Shown: positions 40,279 to 47,651 of the stretch, in pieces
Position numbering within the stretch: the stretch's first letter is position 1
Layout: every line of letters begins with the position of its first letter
Origin: Streptomyces paradoxus
Lineage (GTDB): Bacteria > Actinomycetota > Actinomycetes > Streptomycetales > Streptomycetaceae
DNA length: 64,000 nt
Assembly (NCBI RefSeq): GCF_014202475.1
Contig: NZ_JACHGV010000003.1
Span: 404,454-468,453, forward strand
Direction of reading: 5' to 3'
The notes under the pieces: generated by a model
Told to the model about the DNA's origin: nothing
The model's database searches: none
Seen by the model: only the letters and a program-made list of their open reading frames with translations
Position numbers and translations under genes: made by a program

Positions 40279-40518
40279 ATGAAGCTCAGCCGCCCCGTCT
40301 CCTGGTTCCTGCTCGCCTTCGGGGTGTGGAGCTGGGTCATCTGGATCACTTTCGTCAAGAACCTGGTCAAGGACAGCAGCGGGCTCGCGTTCGACGACGG
40401 TCATCCAACGGCGTACTTCTGGGTGCACCTGGTGCTCGCCGTCGTCTCCTTCGTATTGGGGACGGCCGTCGGGGCCATCGGGTTGCGTGGTCTGCGCGCA
40501 CTGCGCCGGACGTCATAG
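40279..40518 (+). CDS. SCO4848-family small membrane protein
   Basis: Protein of 79 aa with two helices (about 7-24 and 48-68) and a basic tail. The sequence MKLSRPVSWFLLAFGVWSW and the position between the carboxypeptidase and the metallophosphoesterase match the family named after SCO4848. Function is unknown. The next gene starts 22 bases later. Confidence 0.85.
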   Translation: MKLSRPVSWFLLAFGVWSWVIWITFVKNLVKDSSGLAFDDGHPTAYFWVHLVLAVVSFVLGTAVGAIGLRGLRALRRTS

Positions 40519-40540
40519 GGCGATCGGGAGACACGACACC

Positions 40541-42082
40541 GTGGTCATCGTTTTCGTACTCGTCGCCCTGCTGGTCATGGCCGTCATCGTGACGGCCAAC
40601 TGGTACGTGTGGCGCCGCCTGTTCCGCGACACGACCCGCGGCCCGGGCCTCACGCGCCGCGCGGGCGCGGTCCTGATCGCCGGCGGCTGGGTCCTCGCGA
40701 TCACGGCGCTGGTCGCCGAGCGCTCGGGCGCCCCGTTCTGGCTCCAGCAGGTCCTCGCCTGGCCGGGCTTCCTGTGGCTGGCCCTGTCGATATACCTGCT
40801 GCTGGCGGTGCTGGCGGGCGAGTTCGTACGGCCCCTCGTGCGCCGCTTCCTGGAACACCGGGCGAGACGCACGACCACCCCGGCCACGCCCTCCGGGGAC
40901 CCGGCCCGGCCCGACCACGGCGGCAGCGCGGCTCCCACGCGGCCCGGCACCGTCGGCAGGGCGACCGCCACCGCGGCATCAGCAGGCTCGCAGCCGGGCG
41001 CCGGCACCACCCGCGCCTCCGGGACGGCCCCCGCAGCCGTCTCCGAGCCGGGCCACGGCGCCGGGGCGCCCGCGACCGCGCCGCAGGCCAGCGGCAGCGG
41101 TGCGGCCTCCGCTGCGGCGGCACCGACACAGCCGGGCGTCGGCGCCACCCACGCTCCCGCGCCCGGGACGGCCCCGGCAGCCCTCTCCGAGCCGGAGCAG
41201 GTCGCCGGTGGAACGGCGCCTCCGGCCGACCCCGCCCCCCAGCTGCTCCCCGCCGGTCCCTCGCGGCGCCTCTTCGTGTCCCGGGTCGTCGCCGGGGCCG
41301 CCGCGGCCGCGGCCGTCGGGACCGTGGGGTACGGGACGTACGGCGTACTGCGCGGGCCGAAGGTCAAGCGGGTCACCGTGCCGCTGGCCAAGCTGCCGCG
41401 CGCCGCGCACGGGTACCGGATCGCCGTGGTCAGTGACGTGCATCTCGGCCCCGTCCTCGGACGCGGCTTCGCGCAGAAGGTCGTCGACACGATCAACGCG
41501 ACCCAGCCCGACCTGATCGCGGTCGTCGGCGACCTGGTCGACGGCAGCGTGAAGGACCTGGGCCCGGCGGCCGCCCCGCTCGCGCAGCTGAGGGCCCGTC
41601 ACGGCTCCTACTTCGTCACCGGCAACCACGAGTACTTCTCCGGCGCCGGGCAGTGGGTCGAGGAGGTCCGCCGCCTCGGCCTGGACCCCCTGGAGAACGC
41701 CCGCAGGGAGATGCCGTACTTCGACCTGGCCGGTGTCAACGACGTGGCCGGCGAGGAGGAGGGCCAGGGCCCCGACTTCGCGAAGGCGCTCGGCGACCGG
41801 GACACCGCACGCGCGTGCGTCCTGCTCGCCCACCAGCCCGTCCAGATCCACGACGCCGTCGAGCACGGCGTCGACCTCCAGCTCTCCGGCCACACCCACG
41901 GCGGCCAGCTCTGGCCCGGCAACCTCATCGCCTCCGGCGCCAACCCCACCCTCGCGGGCCTGGAGCGCTACGGCGACACCCAGCTCTACGTCTCGCGCGG
42001 CGCCGGCGCCTGGGGCCCGCCCACCCGCGTGGGCGCGCCGTCGGACATCACCCTGATCGAGCTGGCGTCGAAGCAGGCCTGA
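40541..42082 (+). CDS. Membrane-bound metallophosphoesterase
   Basis: Protein of 513 aa. Helices at about 2-20, 40-58 and 65-85 come first. An Ala/Pro/Gly-rich linker of about 140 residues and a further helix (about 248-268) follow. The calcineurin-like domain has all metal motifs: VVSDVHLG, VVGDLVDG, TGNHEYF, LLAHQP and SGHTHGGQ, of the YkuE/YaeI type. The family hydrolyses phosphoesters, with lipid substrates suspected. The GTG start has GGGAG upstream. Confidence 0.9.
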   Translation: MVIVFVLVALLVMAVIVTANWYVWRRLFRDTTRGPGLTRRAGAVLIAGGWVLAITALVAERSGAPFWLQQVLAWPGFLWLALSIYLLLAVLAGEFVRPLVRRFLEHRARRTTTPATPSGDPARPDHGGSAAPTRPGTVGRATATAASAGSQPGAGTTRASGTAPAAVSEPGHGAGAPATAPQASGSGAASAAAAPTQPGVGATHAPAPGTAPAALSEPEQVAGGTAPPADPAPQLLPAGPSRRLFVSRVVAGAAAAAAVGTVGYGTYGVLRGPKVKRVTVPLAKLPRAAHGYRIAVVSDVHLGPVLGRGFAQKVVDTINATQPDLIAVVGDLVDGSVKDLGPAAAPLAQLRARHGSYFVTGNHEYFSGAGQWVEEVRRLGLDPLENARREMPYFDLAGVNDVAGEEEGQGPDFAKALGDRDTARACVLLAHQPVQIHDAVEHGVDLQLSGHTHGGQLWPGNLIASGANPTLAGLERYGDTQLYVSRGAGAWGPPTRVGAPSDITLIELASKQA

Positions 42083-42267
42083 GCACGGCGACTCTGTGAG
42101 AACGCTGTGAAAACGGACGGAAACGTCCATTGGTAAGTTCTTTCCCAACTCGTCAGATCTCCCTTCCCCCTGCTCAAAATCCTGTGATTGGGTGAGCCCG
42201 CCACGAAGGGGTGTGGCATACGCACAAGGCCTCTGAGGCCGCGAAGGGCCTGGGGAGGGCACAGCCG

Positions 42268-43821
42268 ATGCGATCGGTTCGCATACGGATACTCGCGGGG
42301 CTGCTCGTCCTGGCCGCCGTGGGCGTGGGCGCCTGGCAGTTCCTGCCGTCGAAGGGTGACCCGAAGACCATCACGGTCGGCACGACGGACGGCGTCACCT
42401 CGCTCGACCCCGCCGGGGCCTACGACGCGGGCTCCTGGGCGCTGTTCAGCAACGTCTTCCAGTCGCTGCTGACCTTCGCGCCGGGCGGCACCGCCCCCGT
42501 GCCGGACGCGGCGAAGAGCTGCGCGTTCGTCCGCGGCGACCTCACCACCTACCGCTGTGAGCTGCGCGGTGGCCTCACCTTCCCGAGCGGCCGGACGATG
42601 AACGCCGAGGACGTGAAGTACTCCTTCGACCGGATCCTGAATATCAAGGCCCCGGTCGGCCCGGCGTCCCTGCTCGGCACGCTCGGTTCCGTGGACGCCG
42701 ACGGCATGACCGTCACCTTCCACCTGACCTCGCCGGACGCGACGTTCCCGTTCAAGGTGGCCACCGGCGCCGGCTCGATCGTCGACCACACCGCGTACCC
42801 GGCCGGCAAGCTGCGCACCGGCGACCGCGTCGACGGCACGGGCCCGTACACCCTCACCTCGTACGCGAAGGACCATGACGCGGTCCTCGCGCCCAACCAG
42901 CACTACCGGGGCGCCGTCAGCGGCACCGGCCGGCCGGTCGAACTGCGCTACTACGCGACCCCCGAGGCCCTGGACACCGCATGGAAGGACAAGCGGGTCG
43001 AGGTCGCAACCGACCAGCTGCCGCCCGGCGTCCTCGCCGGCCTCAACCCGAGCGACCCCACCCAGCGCGTCTACGAGGCGGACGGATCCGAGACCCGCAA
43101 CCTGTACTTCAACACCCGCTCGGGCAAGCCGCTGCACGGGGCGAAGGTCCGCCGGGCCATCGCCTGGCTGACCGACCGCGAGCGGCTGGCCGCCACCGTC
43201 TACGACGGCACCGTCGACCCGCTGTACTCCCTGATCCCGGCCGGCCTCACCGGGCACACCGCCTCGTTCTTCGACGACTACCCGAAGCCGGACCCCGGCA
43301 AGGCCCGGCAGCTGCTCACCCAGGCCGGTGTGAGCCTGCCGGTGCACTTCACCTACGGCTACGCCAAGGGCCGCGGCGCCGGTGAGCAGGAGGGCGCCGA
43401 GATCAAGAAGGAGCTGGAGGCGAGCGGCCTGTTCAAGGTCACCCTCAAGGGCTACGAGTGGACGGCCTTCCAGAAGCAGTGGGCGAGCGGCGAGCTCGAC
43501 GCGTACGCCGTCGGCTGGGTCGCCGACTTCCCCGACCCGGACACCTTCGGCGCCGCGCTCGTCGGCACCGGCAGCGCCATGAACACCGGCTACAGCAGCA
43601 AGACCGTCGACCGGCTCATCAAGGACAGCCGGCGCTTCGCGGAGCGGACCGAGGCCGACCAGGACTTCCGGTCGGTGCAGGAGACCGTCGCCCAGGACGT
43701 CCCGGTGCTGCCGCTGTGGCAGGCCAAGGAGTACGTCGTCACCACCGAGGACGTCGGCGGCGGCCAGTACCTGTCGGACGGCACGGGCGTGTTCCGGCTG
43801 TGGAGCCTCACCACGCTCTGA
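42268..43821 (+). CDS. ABC transporter substrate-binding protein, family 5 (peptide type)
   Basis: Protein of 517 aa. An N-terminal helix (6-26) without a lipobox Cys acts as an uncleaved anchor or signal. The SBP_bac_5 domain shows TSLDPAGAYD, NAEDVKYSFDRIL, DGTGPYTLTSYAKD and AYAVGWVADFPDPD. No permease or ATPase genes are adjacent, so it is an orphan binding protein or feeds a distant transporter. The ATG at 42268 has GGGGAGGGC before it; an upstream GTG would add 19 residues without hydrophobic character. Confidence 0.88.
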   Translation: MRSVRIRILAGLLVLAAVGVGAWQFLPSKGDPKTITVGTTDGVTSLDPAGAYDAGSWALFSNVFQSLLTFAPGGTAPVPDAAKSCAFVRGDLTTYRCELRGGLTFPSGRTMNAEDVKYSFDRILNIKAPVGPASLLGTLGSVDADGMTVTFHLTSPDATFPFKVATGAGSIVDHTAYPAGKLRTGDRVDGTGPYTLTSYAKDHDAVLAPNQHYRGAVSGTGRPVELRYYATPEALDTAWKDKRVEVATDQLPPGVLAGLNPSDPTQRVYEADGSETRNLYFNTRSGKPLHGAKVRRAIAWLTDRERLAATVYDGTVDPLYSLIPAGLTGHTASFFDDYPKPDPGKARQLLTQAGVSLPVHFTYGYAKGRGAGEQEGAEIKKELEASGLFKVTLKGYEWTAFQKQWASGELDAYAVGWVADFPDPDTFGAALVGTGSAMNTGYSSKTVDRLIKDSRRFAERTEADQDFRSVQETVAQDVPVLPLWQAKEYVVTTEDVGGGQYLSDGTGVFRLWSLTTL

Positions 43822-43841
43822 CGCCCCCGCCCGGCCGCGGT

Positions 43842-44588
43842 TCAGGGGTCGGCGCGCCGCCGGGCCGCCGGATCGGGGATGGCGTTCGTCATCCCCGGCA
43901 GGAACTCCGTGAACAGCTCGTGCACCTCGCGCACGAGCGGCCGCAGCACCCGGAAGCGGGCCAGGGCGACGCCCCGCGCGGTGAGCCGGGCGCCGCGCTC
44001 GGCGAGCCGGTAGCTGCGCTCGCGCCCCTCGGTACGGTCGAAGATCCAGTACAGGACGAGCCCCATCTGGGACAGCCACATCAACTCGGGCAGGATGTCC
44101 CGCAGTTCATCGGGCACCTTGGTCTTGGTGGCCCCGGCGAGCACCTCCCGGTGAACGCTGATGGCCTCCTCGCGCGCGTGCTCCGACTCGGGGGAGAAGG
44201 GGCTGAGCGGGCTGTCCGGGTCGGCGGCGTTCTTGAAGAACTGCACCGCGAACTCGTGGTACGGCGCCGCGATGTCCAGCCAGGCCCGCAGCACACCCGC
44301 CAGCCGGGCCTCCAGGTCGCGCTCCCGGTCCAGGATCTCCCGGACCGCCACCTGGTGCTCGGCGGCGATCCGGTCGTAGAAGCCCTGGATCAGGTGCTCC
44401 TTGCCCGCGAAGTAGTAGTACGCGTTGCCGACGGAGACCCCTGCCTCCTTGGCGATGGCCCGCATCGTCGTCTTGTCGTAGCCGCGCTCCTGGAACAGCC
44501 GCATGGCCGTCTCCAGGATCAGGGCGCGGGTCTGCTCGGACTTGGTCGGGGTGGCGCCGTCGTCGGGGCCGTCGTTCATCGCGGGCAC
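43842..44588 (-). CDS. TetR-family regulator
   Basis: Protein of about 248 aa. The helix-turn-helix is TTMRAIAKEAGVSVGNAYYYF near residues 43-63, and a long C-terminal ligand domain follows. The GTG at 44588 lacks a ribosome site but lies 8 nt after TAGGCT (minus strand, 44597-44602), so a leaderless mRNA is likely; an ATG three codons in is the alternative. It lies downstream of, and in the same direction as, the DCC and membrane genes, whose promoter carries two palindromes. It is the obvious candidate to bind them. Confidence 0.88.
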   Translation of the reverse strand: MPAMNDGPDDGATPTKSEQTRALILETAMRLFQERGYDKTTMRAIAKEAGVSVGNAYYYFAGKEHLIQGFYDRIAAEHQVAVREILDRERDLEARLAGVLRAWLDIAAPYHEFAVQFFKNAADPDSPLSPFSPESEHAREEAISVHREVLAGATKTKVPDELRDILPELMWLSQMGLVLYWIFDRTEGRERSYRLAERGARLTARGVALARFRVLRPLVREVHELFTEFLPGMTNAIPDPAARRRADP

Positions 44589-44620
44589 GGGAAGAGAGCC
44601 TAACGTCAGTACCGGTGCGG

Positions 44621-45115
44621 TCACCGGGGGGCGCAGGTGCCGTCGGCGCAGCCCGGCGCCGTGTGGCTCCATCCGCTGCCGGGGTCGTACGACCAGCCGT
44701 CCGCCCGCCGGTACACCTGACCGCCCCACGGGGCCGCGGCGCGCTGCCCCCGGTGCCACTGGGCCCCGCGCCACTTGGCGGCGGCGAGCACCGCGCCCCT
44801 GGCCAGCCGGGCACCGGCCGGGGTGCTCAGCCGGTGGGCGAGCGGCCGGTGCTCGCGCAGCGCCCACAGGGTGACCACCCAGGCGGCGGGGCCCCGGTAG
44901 ACCTGCCCGGCGTCGCCGACGACGGTGATCTCGTCGAGGGTGGCGCCGTGGTCGAGGCCGGGGAAGCGCCGCCGGGCCTCCTCGGAGGCGGCCGGGACCA
45001 GCTCCAGCGGCACCAGCTTCGGCTGCCGCAGGAGCCAGTCGCGCAGGAACGCGCACAGGGAGCACTCGGCGTCGTAGAGGACGGTGAGCCGGCGGACCGG
45101 TGCGGTGGCGTTCAC
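44621..45115 (-). CDS. DCC-family (DUF393) thiol-disulfide oxidoreductase-like protein
   Basis: Protein of 164 aa. The thioredoxin-like start LTVLYDAECSLCAFLRDWL carries the CxxC (CSLC) of the DUF393/DCC family, followed by an ITVVGDAGQVYRGPAAWV block. The family is presumed to act in disulfide chemistry; no substrate is known. The C-terminal tail has a Trp/Gly-rich segment and two further cysteines. The GTG follows GGAGAGCC and lies 12 bases after the membrane gene, so both are in one operon. Confidence 0.85.
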   Translation of the reverse strand: MNATAPVRRLTVLYDAECSLCAFLRDWLLRQPKLVPLELVPAASEEARRRFPGLDHGATLDEITVVGDAGQVYRGPAAWVVTLWALREHRPLAHRLSTPAGARLARGAVLAAAKWRGAQWHRGQRAAAPWGGQVYRRADGWSYDPGSGWSHTAPGCADGTCAPR

Positions 45116-45127
45116 GAGGCTCTCCGC

Positions 45128-45535
45128 TCAGGCCTGGGCCTGCGGGGCGACCCAGCCCTGCGGCGGCACCGGCGGGACCTGCTCGCGCTCCATGGCGCCC
45201 CGGCGCCGGATCCGGTTGAGCACGTAGACGTTGCCCAGGTGCATCACGCCCAGCACCAGCAGCACGACACCGAGCTTGGTCGACAGGGCCTCGAAGATGC
45301 CGCGTGCGTCGGTGATGGTCTCGTCGTCGCTCAGGTACAGCGCGACGAACCCGAGGTTGACGAGGTAGAAGCCGACCACCAGGAGGTGGTTGACGGCGTC
45401 GGCGAGCTTCTCGTTGCCGTGCAGCACGTCGGCGAGGAAGACCCTCCCGTTGTGGCTGAGCGTGCGGGCCACCCAGATGGTCAGACCGATGCTGACCAGC
45501 AGGTAGATGACGTAGGCGATGACCGTGCGGTCCAT
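45128..45535 (-). CDS. Three-helix membrane protein under palindromic operators
   Basis: Protein of 135 aa with helices at about 4-23, 50-68 and 86-106 and a Pro-rich tail. It has no recognised domain. Its promoter is readable: -35 TTGAAC, a 17-base spacer and -10 TACAGT on the minus strand. One TTGAAC palindrome overlaps the -35 and another sits between the start site and the ribosome site. It is first in the operon with the DCC gene, and probably repressed by the TetR protein encoded downstream. Confidence 0.8.
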   Translation of the reverse strand: MDRTVIAYVIYLLVSIGLTIWVARTLSHNGRVFLADVLHGNEKLADAVNHLLVVGFYLVNLGFVALYLSDDETITDARGIFEALSTKLGVVLLVLGVMHLGNVYVLNRIRRRGAMEREQVPPVPPQGWVAPQAQA

Positions 45536-45548
45536 AGCCCCACCCTTC

Positions 45549-45562
45549 TTGAACACGTTCAA
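45549..45562. promoter_or_regulatory. Operator half-pair 2: TTGAAC-N2-GTTCAA
   Basis: TTGAACACGTTCAA is symmetric apart from the central two bases. It lies about 10 bases after the predicted start site of the membrane gene and just before its ribosome site. It matches the site at 45594 in both arms. Confidence 0.75.
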
Positions 45563-45578
45563 AACGCTGTCGGGGATG

Positions 45579-45607
45579 ACTGTAGACCTACTTTTGAACA
45601 TGTTCAA
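45579..45607 (-). promoter_or_regulatory. Promoter of the membrane/DCC operon
   Basis: On the minus strand TTGAAC (45607-45602) and TACAGT (45584-45579) are separated by exactly 17 bases, close to the housekeeping sigma consensus. Predicted start is near 45572. Confidence 0.6.
45594..45607. promoter_or_regulatory. Operator 1: perfect palindrome TTGAACATGTTCAA
   Basis: This perfect 14-base palindrome covers the -35 box of the minus-strand operon and lies about 50 bases ahead of the plus-strand ORF at 45656. Its centre is 45 bases from that of the second operator, about four helical turns. A TetR-type repressor is the likely ligand. Confidence 0.78.
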
Positions 45608-45655
45608 CACGATGGCGCGGGGTGATTGTCAGTGGTGGCTCGTACGGTCCTCGGC

Positions 45656-45925
45656 ATGGGAATCGTGACGTTCGTCGACGAGACGACGGCGGGGGAGCGG
45701 CGCACGGCCTGGGGGCTGGAGATCGCCGAAGAACGGCTGACCGTACGGGAACTGATCCGGCGCCGGGTGTTCCAGGAGGTCGCGGAGTACAACGCCCGTA
45801 CCCCGGAGGTGTTCCAGGGGCTCGTGCAGCCCGAGGAGACCGAGCGCGTGCTGAACGGCTACGCGGTGCGCACCCGTCGCCGGATCGACCCCGAGACGCA
45901 GACGGCCCTGGCCGAGCGGGCCTGA
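45656..45925 (+). CDS. Short conserved-hypothetical ORF, probably C-terminally truncated
   Basis: Protein of 89 aa beginning MGIVTFVDETTAGERRTAWGL, with an ERLTVRELIRRRVFQEVAEYN block and LVQPEETERVLNG. I recall longer Streptomyces proteins with this start that continue into an F..N....LVDDRQ-type ending. Here the frame stops after ALAERA, and the same frame resumes past the stop with unrelated-looking DQYLCIVPKSAP. It is therefore likely a truncated remnant. The start has no good ribosome site. Confidence 0.55.
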   Translation: MGIVTFVDETTAGERRTAWGLEIAEERLTVRELIRRRVFQEVAEYNARTPEVFQGLVQPEETERVLNGYAVRTRRRIDPETQTALAERA

Positions 45926-45934
45926 ACCCCGAAC

Positions 45935-46095
45935 GACCAGTACCTCTGCATCGTCCCGAAGTCCGCCCCGGCGGCCCCGGCACGGGCTACCTCCCCTACG
46001 AGGGCGACCGCATGCTCGCGGTGATCCTGAGCAAGGCGATGATGCTCGCGGCGGACACGAAGATCACGGACCCTTCGATCCTGAGCCAGTTGTGA
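45935..46095 (+). pseudogene. Frameshifted C-terminal gene fragment
   Basis: From 45935 one frame reads DQYLCIVPKSAP and then loses sense. The next frame takes over and reads GTGYLPYEGDRMLAVILSKA, then MMLAADTKITDPSILSQL, to a stop at 46093-46095. The second part is well-formed protein, with periodic Leu/Ile and an ordered end, but has no start. It resembles the C-terminal end of large actinobacterial DUF proteins (DUF4132/DUF5724 type, recalled only). Read as the tail of a deleted, frameshifted gene. Confidence 0.5.
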
Positions 46096-46098
46096 GAG

Positions 46099-46719
46099 TC
46101 AGTCGCTCGTTCGCGCCTGGCCGGCCTTGAGAATCTCCGCCACGTCGAGGGTCACCTTGGCGCCGATGGAGTCGGGGAGGGTGACGAGCTCGCCGGGGGC
46201 ATGCGGACGGTGGTTCTCGTAGCCGCTTCCCACCGGGTCGGTCAGGACGTGGAGGCGTTGGTGCTTGCGGTCCACGATGACGTAGACCGGGACCTTCGCC
46301 TCGGCGTAGGCGGCGACCTTCGTCTTCAGGTCGTTCTTCCAGTTTGTGGAGGTGACTTCCAGCACGAGGCGGAAGCAGACCGGGTCGTAGGCGTTGTTCT
46401 CGACGTGGTGATCCTCGAAGTCGGCGTCCACGACCGCGAGGTCGGGGACGGCGTAGTCCTCCGGCTCCATGGGCAGCCAAAGACCGACGCCCTGAAGGAC
46501 CTCGGTTTCGCCTCCATCCAGGTCGGCCGCCATGAAGGGACGCATGAGCTTGGTCAGCGCGCGAGCATGGGCGCCGTCAGGGGACGGGGTCACGAGGAGA
46601 TGGCCTCCGATGATCTCGACGCGGTAGCCCGGATGGCGCTCCATGATCTCGTCGGCGATGGTCGTGAGGGTGACCGGCTCTTCGTCGTGGAAGGGCTGCT
46701 CGACGGAAGCTGCGGACAT
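46099..46719 (-). CDS. Uma2-family (DUF820) PD-(D/E)xK nuclease-like protein
   Basis: Protein of 206 aa. The family pattern is intact: YRVEIIGGHLLVTPSPDGAH, YAVPDLAVVDADF, LVLEVTSTNWKNDLKTKVAAYAEAKVPVYVIVD. The Asp, Glu and Lys of the restriction-endonuclease core are seen. Uma2 proteins are abundant in Streptomyces and often next to decayed DNA; function is not established. The ATG has a strong AGGAGG site. It abuts the pseudogene fragment tail to tail. Confidence 0.85.
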   Translation of the reverse strand: MSAASVEQPFHDEEPVTLTTIADEIMERHPGYRVEIIGGHLLVTPSPDGAHARALTKLMRPFMAADLDGGETEVLQGVGLWLPMEPEDYAVPDLAVVDADFEDHHVENNAYDPVCFRLVLEVTSTNWKNDLKTKVAAYAEAKVPVYVIVDRKHQRLHVLTDPVGSGYENHRPHAPGELVTLPDSIGAKVTLDVAEILKAGQARTSD

Positions 46720-46820
46720 CAGGTGCCTCCTGGGAACTGGTGTCGAGAGCATCATCGTAGGCCGGACGACCTCCGGGCGGCCCGTCCCGCTGCGTTCACC
46801 CGAGGGTGTGGCATATGCCA

Positions 46821-46853
46821 GAGGGCCCCGTCTCCAGCGGAAACAGGGCCCTC
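46821..46853 (-). terminator. Terminator of the sdh operon
   Basis: Arms GAGGGCCC (46821-46828) and GGGCCCTC (46846-46853) lie 18 bases beyond the sdhB stop. Confidence 0.7.
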
Positions 46854-46871
46854 AAGCGCAAGCGGTCGATC

Positions 46872-47651
46872 TCAGAAGCGGCGCGTGATCAGCGCTCGCT
46901 TCACCTCGGCGATCGCCTTCGTGACCTCGATGCCGCGCGGGCAGGCGTCCGTGCAGTTGAAGGTCGTGCGGCAGCGCCAGACGCCGTCGCGGTCGTTCAG
47001 GATCTCCAGGCGCTGCTCGCCGGCCTCGTCACGCGAGTCGAAGATGAAGCGGTGCGCGTTGACGATGGCGGCCGGGCCGAAGTACTGGCCGTCGTTCCAG
47101 AAGACCGGGCACGACGTGGTGCAGGCCGCGCAGAGGATGCACTTCGTCGTGTCGTCGAAGCGCTCGCGGTCCTCGGCCGTCTGGAAACGCTCACGCGTCG
47201 GCTCGTTCGTGTCCTTCGTGATCAGGAAGGGCATGACGTCGCGGTACGCCTGGAAGAACGGCTCCATGTCGACCACGAGGTCCTTCAGGACCGTGAGGCC
47301 CTTGATGGCCTCGACCGTGATCGGCTTCTCGGGGTTGATGTCCTTGATCAGCGTCTTGCAGGCAAGGCGGTTCTTGCCGTTGATCCGCATCGCGTCCGAG
47401 CCGCAGATGCCGTGCGCGCAGGAACGGCGGAACGTCAGCGTGCCGTCCAGGTCCCACTTGATCTTGTGGAGGGCGTCGAGGACACGCTCCTTGGGGTCGA
47501 TCTCCACCTGGAAGTCTTCCCACACCGCCTCCGCCGCGACCTCCGGGTTGAACCGGCGGATGCGGAAGGTGACCGTGATGTAGGGGGAGTCGGCGAAACC
47601 GGGCTCGGGCTTGCCGGCCGCGTCTTCCTTGTCCAGAACAGGGGTAGCCAT
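46872..47651 (-). CDS. sdhB: Succinate dehydrogenase iron-sulfur subunit
   Basis: Protein of 259 aa. Cysteine clusters for three Fe-S centres are complete: RRSCAHGICGSDAM plus LACK (2Fe-2S), CILCAACTTSCP (4Fe-4S) and CRTTFNCTDACPRG (3Fe-4S region). It carries electrons from the flavoprotein to menaquinone in the membrane. Its ATG overlaps the sdhA stop (TGATG). It is the last gene of sdhCDAB. Confidence 0.97.
   Translation of the reverse strand: MATPVLDKEDAAGKPEPGFADSPYITVTFRIRRFNPEVAAEAVWEDFQVEIDPKERVLDALHKIKWDLDGTLTFRRSCAHGICGSDAMRINGKNRLACKTLIKDINPEKPITVEAIKGLTVLKDLVVDMEPFFQAYRDVMPFLITKDTNEPTRERFQTAEDRERFDDTTKCILCAACTTSCPVFWNDGQYFGPAAIVNAHRFIFDSRDEAGEQRLEILNDRDGVWRCRTTFNCTDACPRGIEVTKAIAEVKRALITRRF

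Follow-up and report, generated by a model that had tools for sequence, protein, structure and literature searches.

The window analysed here, a 64,000-nucleotide stretch of Streptomyces paradoxus DNA, carries a set of three genes on its minus strand. The first (45128–45535) encodes a small membrane protein of 135 aa, without a Pfam or NCBIfam match and with a poor predicted structure (mean pLDDT 57.8), whose orthologues are kept together with the operators described below. The second (44621–45115) encodes a DCC1-like thiol-disulfide oxidoreductase (PF04134) with a CSLC motif. A TetR-family regulator, which the first-pass annotation had placed at the end of the gene set, is indeed encoded third (43842–44588), and combines an N-terminal TetR_N helix-turn-helix (PF00440, 69.2 bits against a cut-off of 24) with a C-terminal ligand/dimer domain (PF17931, TetR_C_23, 93 bits against 29.1). 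Its start lies at 44588 or 44579, the GTG at 44588 being the likelier judging from a conserved TTAGGCT...GTG layout. Residues 2–242 of the 245 are matched by PDB 3c07 (E 1.9e-141), a close homologue which we take to be a putative TetR-family regulator of S. coelicolor and which by position corresponds to SCO4850. The nearest named TetR loci, 96–99% identical, all belong to Streptomyces, and the named NCBIfam TetR equivalogs (ScbR, BetI, FadR, PsrA, KstR and others) all scored far below their cut-offs among the 25 families listed.

On the plus strand, 40487–43821 encodes first a metallophosphoesterase (PF00149) and then a solute-binding protein of family 5. In three close relatives (L201, L213 and L217), the published SCO4848 primer maps on that side of tetR, about 2 kb beyond its start and, in L213, 1.3 kb beyond its end. 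The two genes are therefore probably SCO4848 and SCO4849, of which the former is the phiBT1 integration gene and the latter is co-transcribed with it. The primer has no match in the window itself. An assignment of the membrane and DCC genes as SCO4848/SCO4849 was rejected, as the primer lies on the opposite side of tetR; consequently, the reports on phiBT1-attB, sporulation and sigma-E concern, by position, the metallophosphoesterase/solute-binding pair. Between the operon and the succinate dehydrogenase-like genes, 45656–46755 contains an ORF of 89 aa that has no Pfam match, and a Uma2-family gene (PF05685).

Two 14-bp palindromes precede the membrane-protein gene, TTGAACACGTTCAA at 45549–45562 and TTGAACATGTTCAA at 45594–45607. 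Both are perfect TTGAACnnGTTCAA sites and their centres lie 45 bp apart, exactly as the first-pass annotation had reported for two 14-base sites with the same arms. Read along the minus strand, the order is TTGAAC (45607–45602), 17 bp, TACAGT (45584–45579), 16 bp, the second site, GGGTGGGG and the ATG at 45535. The first half of the upstream operator is the −35 hexamer TTGAAC, TACAGT is the −10 hexamer predicted from its sequence and its conservation in orthologous promoters, and the downstream operator, TTGAACGTGTTCAA in the minus-strand reading, follows the predicted start point and precedes the purine-rich ribosome site upstream of the ATG. The layout claimed earlier, with one site over the −35 and one between start site and ribosome site, therefore holds on this strand, the start site being predicted. 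A generic promoter scanner called no promoter in 43700–45750; it requires 9 of the 12 hexamer positions to match, and TTGAAC/TACAGT match 8, so that the promoter call rests on conservation, in 119 of 121 promoters. Rfam returned nothing at the gathering score in 43500–46900. A role of the palindromes as RNA hairpins was rejected by reasoning, since transcripts from this promoter would not include the upstream site, and elsewhere the palindrome covers −35 hexamers.

No operator is found at the putative −10 element of tetR itself, TTAGGCT at 44597–44603 on the minus strand. The exact motif occurs within 70 bp upstream of tetR in 80 of 103 TetR loci (at least 80% identity), in 77 of these 23–25 bp before the assumed start, with a GTG soon after in the examples viewed, and also in 9 of 10 TetR-containing loci without the local operon. 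This conservation makes a leaderless promoter of its own probable in the genus; in Streptomyces, tetR would thus probably be transcribed unregulated and operator-free.

Within the window, four matches to the site were found at up to two mismatches, a number reached in none of 100 dinucleotide shuffles (mean 0.23). The complete genome (8.58 Mb) contains five perfect sites compared to none for the reversed control pattern, with 0.02 expected per genome from the base composition of the window, and 18 sites compared to 4 for the control when one mismatch is allowed. The search for further genomic copies proposed in the first-pass annotation thus yields three perfect sites outside the local promoter, each just upstream of a gene: one for a 174-aa membrane protein (L004), one for a TIGR01777-type SDR (L005; 201.9 bits, just below the cut-off of 207.35) and one for a small membrane protein (L001).

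Across the genus, visual inspection assigned 41 of the 60 site loci outside the operon to five recurrent target groups, named from representatives: the 174-aa membrane protein (group A, 10 loci), the TIGR01777-type SDR (group B, 13 loci), a penicillin-binding-like protein with MecA_N (group C, 4 loci), YndJ (PF14158; group D, 9 loci, of which L123 is degenerate, without a PF14158 match in its genome) and the small membrane protein (group E, 5 loci). The remaining 19 fit no recurrent group and are either isolated cases or possibly chance sites; among them are perfect operators just upstream of genes for a lipase-maturation-factor protein, LMF1 (PF06762, L139), and for DUF817 (PF05675, L130), which are candidate extra targets. 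The SDR gene was found in 11 of 18 genomes with TetR and in 2 of 11 without (13 of 29 overall); it is preceded by an operator in all 11 of the former (10 perfect, one mismatch in G040) but in neither of the latter. Similarly YndJ, absent from the window's own genome, occurs in 13 of 29 genomes with TetR (five of them in another family, f17) and in 1 of 8 without, 14 of 37 overall, and carries one or two sites in 13/13 versus 0/1. In one YndJ locus (L121), a DUF6777 gene (PF20568; 849–2507, minus strand) runs divergently from YndJ, whose operator region it may share, and similar-looking divergent genes lie beside other YndJ loci. The earlier proposal that the palindromes control a DCC/membrane operon consequently stands for the local promoter but not as a limit to one operon, as the sites appear to serve a regulon including SDR and YndJ.

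The geometry of the sites was compared after dropping promoters with less than 150 bp of upstream sequence and counting identical ones once. Two sites (at most one mismatch) are present in 121 of 123 distinct membrane-gene promoters, the other two (L253 and L297) having one; among the 121, the spacing is 43–46 bp in 117 and a TANNNT follows TTGAAC by 16–18 bp in 119. A single site at this stringency is found in groups A (16/16), B (16/16), C (4/4) and E (5/5) and for YndJ in 4 of 5 f17 genomes. A site is placed over the −35 in A (15/16), B (16/16) and D (8/9) but not in C (0/4) or E (0/5); in all C (4/4) and E (5/5) promoters and in the four single-site f17 YndJ promoters it lies 11–18 bp after TANNNT, before the ribosome site. 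Two operator positions can thus be distinguished. Either occurs by itself at some promoters, whereas those of the membrane gene, and those of YndJ in Streptomyces, have both. With five loci of genomes lacking TetR left out, the loci examined contain 326 distinct perfect sites, 311 of them with RY at the palindrome centre, which gives the consensus TTGAACRYGTTCAA. In G119 (L025, 491–571), a third operator-like site, CTGAACATGTTCAA, lies 22 bp before the usual pair.

Over all loci, the distinct pair spacings are 22, 29, 31–35, 40–47 and 55–56 bp, with a hint of a helical preference from which the 40–41 and 29 bp pairs deviate. These numbers bear on DNA looping, in which two TetR dimers would bridge and bend the promoter, a reading that we regard as very unlikely. 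The tightly kept spacing of the membrane-gene promoters would fit a loop, as would the pairs about one helical turn away at 31–35 and 55–56 bp, but a fixed −35/−10/ribosome-site layout gives a fixed spacing as well, the 40–41 and 29 bp pairs are out of phase, and groups A, B, C and E as well as most f17 YndJ promoters show only one site. Moreover, TetR dimers are not known to bridge. As single sites are common and the spacing varies, looping is unsupported and two independent blocks are favoured. Of the looping or tight repression suggested in the first-pass annotation, the layout for tight repression is retained, while looping is not, in view of the single-site targets and spacings of 22–56 bp.

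The occurrence of the site follows that of the regulator. In a family set of 150 genomes, 124 of which contain TetR at E 1e-20, a perfect site was found in 122/124 genomes with TetR and 3/26 without (Fisher 1e-21), and in the class set of 394 genomes, with TetR called at E 1e-25, in 66/86 versus 41/308 (hand-counted; Fisher 7e-29); TetR presence rests on E-value cuts throughout, and the p-values overstate independence because the genomes are related. Within the genus, the figures are 27/28 and 0/10. The two TetR-containing exceptions in the family set are G015, whose tetR is preceded by two one-mismatch sites spaced 45 bp apart, and G056, with five one-mismatch sites against 4 for the control, little above background, one of which precedes a gene resembling group C by its first residues. 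The three genomes with a perfect site in which TetR was not called are G023, G007 and G035. In G023 (L359), the membrane gene is recognizable as a match of 48–52 residues, one site is intact and the second operator is degraded; the operon is apparently decaying after loss of the regulator. In the class set, the 20 TetR-containing genomes without a perfect site comprise nine from family f17, seven from family f36, and G056, G171, G419 and G438. Half of the f17 genomes with TetR (9/18) belong here, likewise G171 (80% complete), while G419 and G438 have one-mismatch pairs before tetR (L272 and L274). Twelve f17 loci (L240–L251) have no site near tetR though their recognition helix is unchanged or altered at a single residue. 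Conversely, all six TetR-containing named strains without the local operon that were searched keep one or two perfect sites elsewhere, 11 in total, of which eight precede group A or SDR genes (tblastn) and one a truncated group A gene (L323), and two (L326 and L330) were not assigned. At L323 (G506), the operator and the −10 are intact although the group A gene is apparently truncated.

Outside the family, 40 loci were read. Nine of these (L260–L263, L271–L274 and L276) encode a TetR of 41–48% identity followed by an SDR gene, and in all nine a site or pair with at most one mismatch is located no more than about 110 bp upstream of tetR; in these distant tetR-SDR families tetR is probably autoregulated. 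Nine others have a membrane gene with sites, L253 also an SDR gene with its own pair, the twelve f17 loci have neither, six f36 loci each contain a single site, either variant or with one mismatch, L258 shows just a site, and no site is seen in L256, L278 or L279. Among the f36 loci, CTGAACnnGTTCAG is found close upstream of or overlapping the assumed tetR start in L266, L268, L269 and L270, and TCGAACGTGTTCAG in L275, with the recognition helices GATHYHF, GTTNYHF, GTTHYHF or GTIYLAL; in L267 the helix GNAYYYF is kept and the site is TTGAACATGTTCGA. Thus, 4 of 5 TetRs with a changed recognition helix have CTGAACnnGTTCAG, and the outer base of the operator changes with the helix. At the level of sequence, this co-variation is small but direct.

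If instead another regulator, such as LexA or an unrelated factor, bound the sites and TetR were a bystander, perfect sites in genomes lacking TetR would be expected, and some do occur in the class set (41/308). Within the genus, however, the site tracks TetR, it precedes distant tetR genes without the membrane-DCC genes, and its outer base varies with the TetR recognition helix. The LexA/SOS box is GAAC-N4-GTTC, with a gap of 4 bp compared to 2 bp at both sites here. A bystander TetR is hence hardly to be expected, and co-occurrence, the sites before distant tetR genes and the helix co-variation point to the neighbouring TetR as the cognate factor, as initially proposed. Activation of these promoters by TetR is as improbable, since some TetR-family proteins are activators but the sites lie over the −35 hexamer or 11–18 bp after the −10, where a bound protein is expected to block polymerase.

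The palindromes are thus very probably docking sites of the neighbouring TetR, with the same site controlling a small conserved membrane/redox gene set in many actinobacteria. We are confident, short of certainty, that the pair constitutes two operators of the third-gene TetR, a double lock released by a ligand, in a small repressed regulon. Sequence comparison provides the site, its geometry, the co-occurrence and the regulon, from which we infer TetR binding, repression and ligand release. A TetR dimer on the upstream site would cover the −35 hexamer and one on the downstream site would sit just past the start point, each blocking RNA polymerase alone and both together forming the double lock, until a ligand releases TetR from the operators. 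The same TetR would repress the genes for the TIGR01777-type SDR, the 174-aa membrane protein and the small membrane protein in this genome, and in relatives also YndJ and others. For TetR itself, expression would probably come from its own leaderless promoter together with read-through.

The PsrA-type TetR operators of Pseudomonas are likewise short-gap palindromes read by a TetR-family protein; their arms and gap differ from this site and their targets are fatty-acid genes, and the NCBIfam PsrA model scores 37.6 on the present TetR against a cut-off of 300. The tetA/tetR system (tetO1–tetO2), as described in PMC3511530, shares the TetR-family dimer, the palindromic operators and the control of promoters by two of them. 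Unlike in tetA/tetR, the tetR gene is here third in its set and not divergent from an efflux pump, operators are found at several unlinked promoters, the local spacing is about 45 bp and the targets are membrane/redox proteins. Ahn et al. 2012 (PMC3511530) classified Streptomyces TetR genes by context, and SCO4850 is absent from the main text. Elsewhere in the searched literature, which left most subscription journals outside, SCO4850 appeared only in table entries of two papers. For 3c07, a solved structure, no source found assigns an operator or targets; the exact operator strings tried occurred in no paper of the searched literature, which likewise contained neither SCO4851–4853 nor the presumed locus tags of S. 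avermitilis and S. venezuelae. The best reading is a TetR regulon without a description in this literature, one in the journals outside the search being possible.

A TetR subfamily with a solved structure and no function assigned in the searched literature thereby gains an operator and a target list, and one regulatory code, found from Streptomyces to distant actinobacteria, would link several widespread protein families of unknown role. Tentatively, and with less than even confidence, one ancient actinobacterial regulator/operator may unite DCC, TIGR01777-type SDR, YndJ and small membrane proteins, perhaps also LMF1-like and penicillin-binding-like proteins, as a membrane/envelope response sensed via a lipophilic or redox ligand in PF17931. 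Under the shared regulatory code, deletion of tetR should switch on all targets together, which would make their shared role and inducing signal directly testable.
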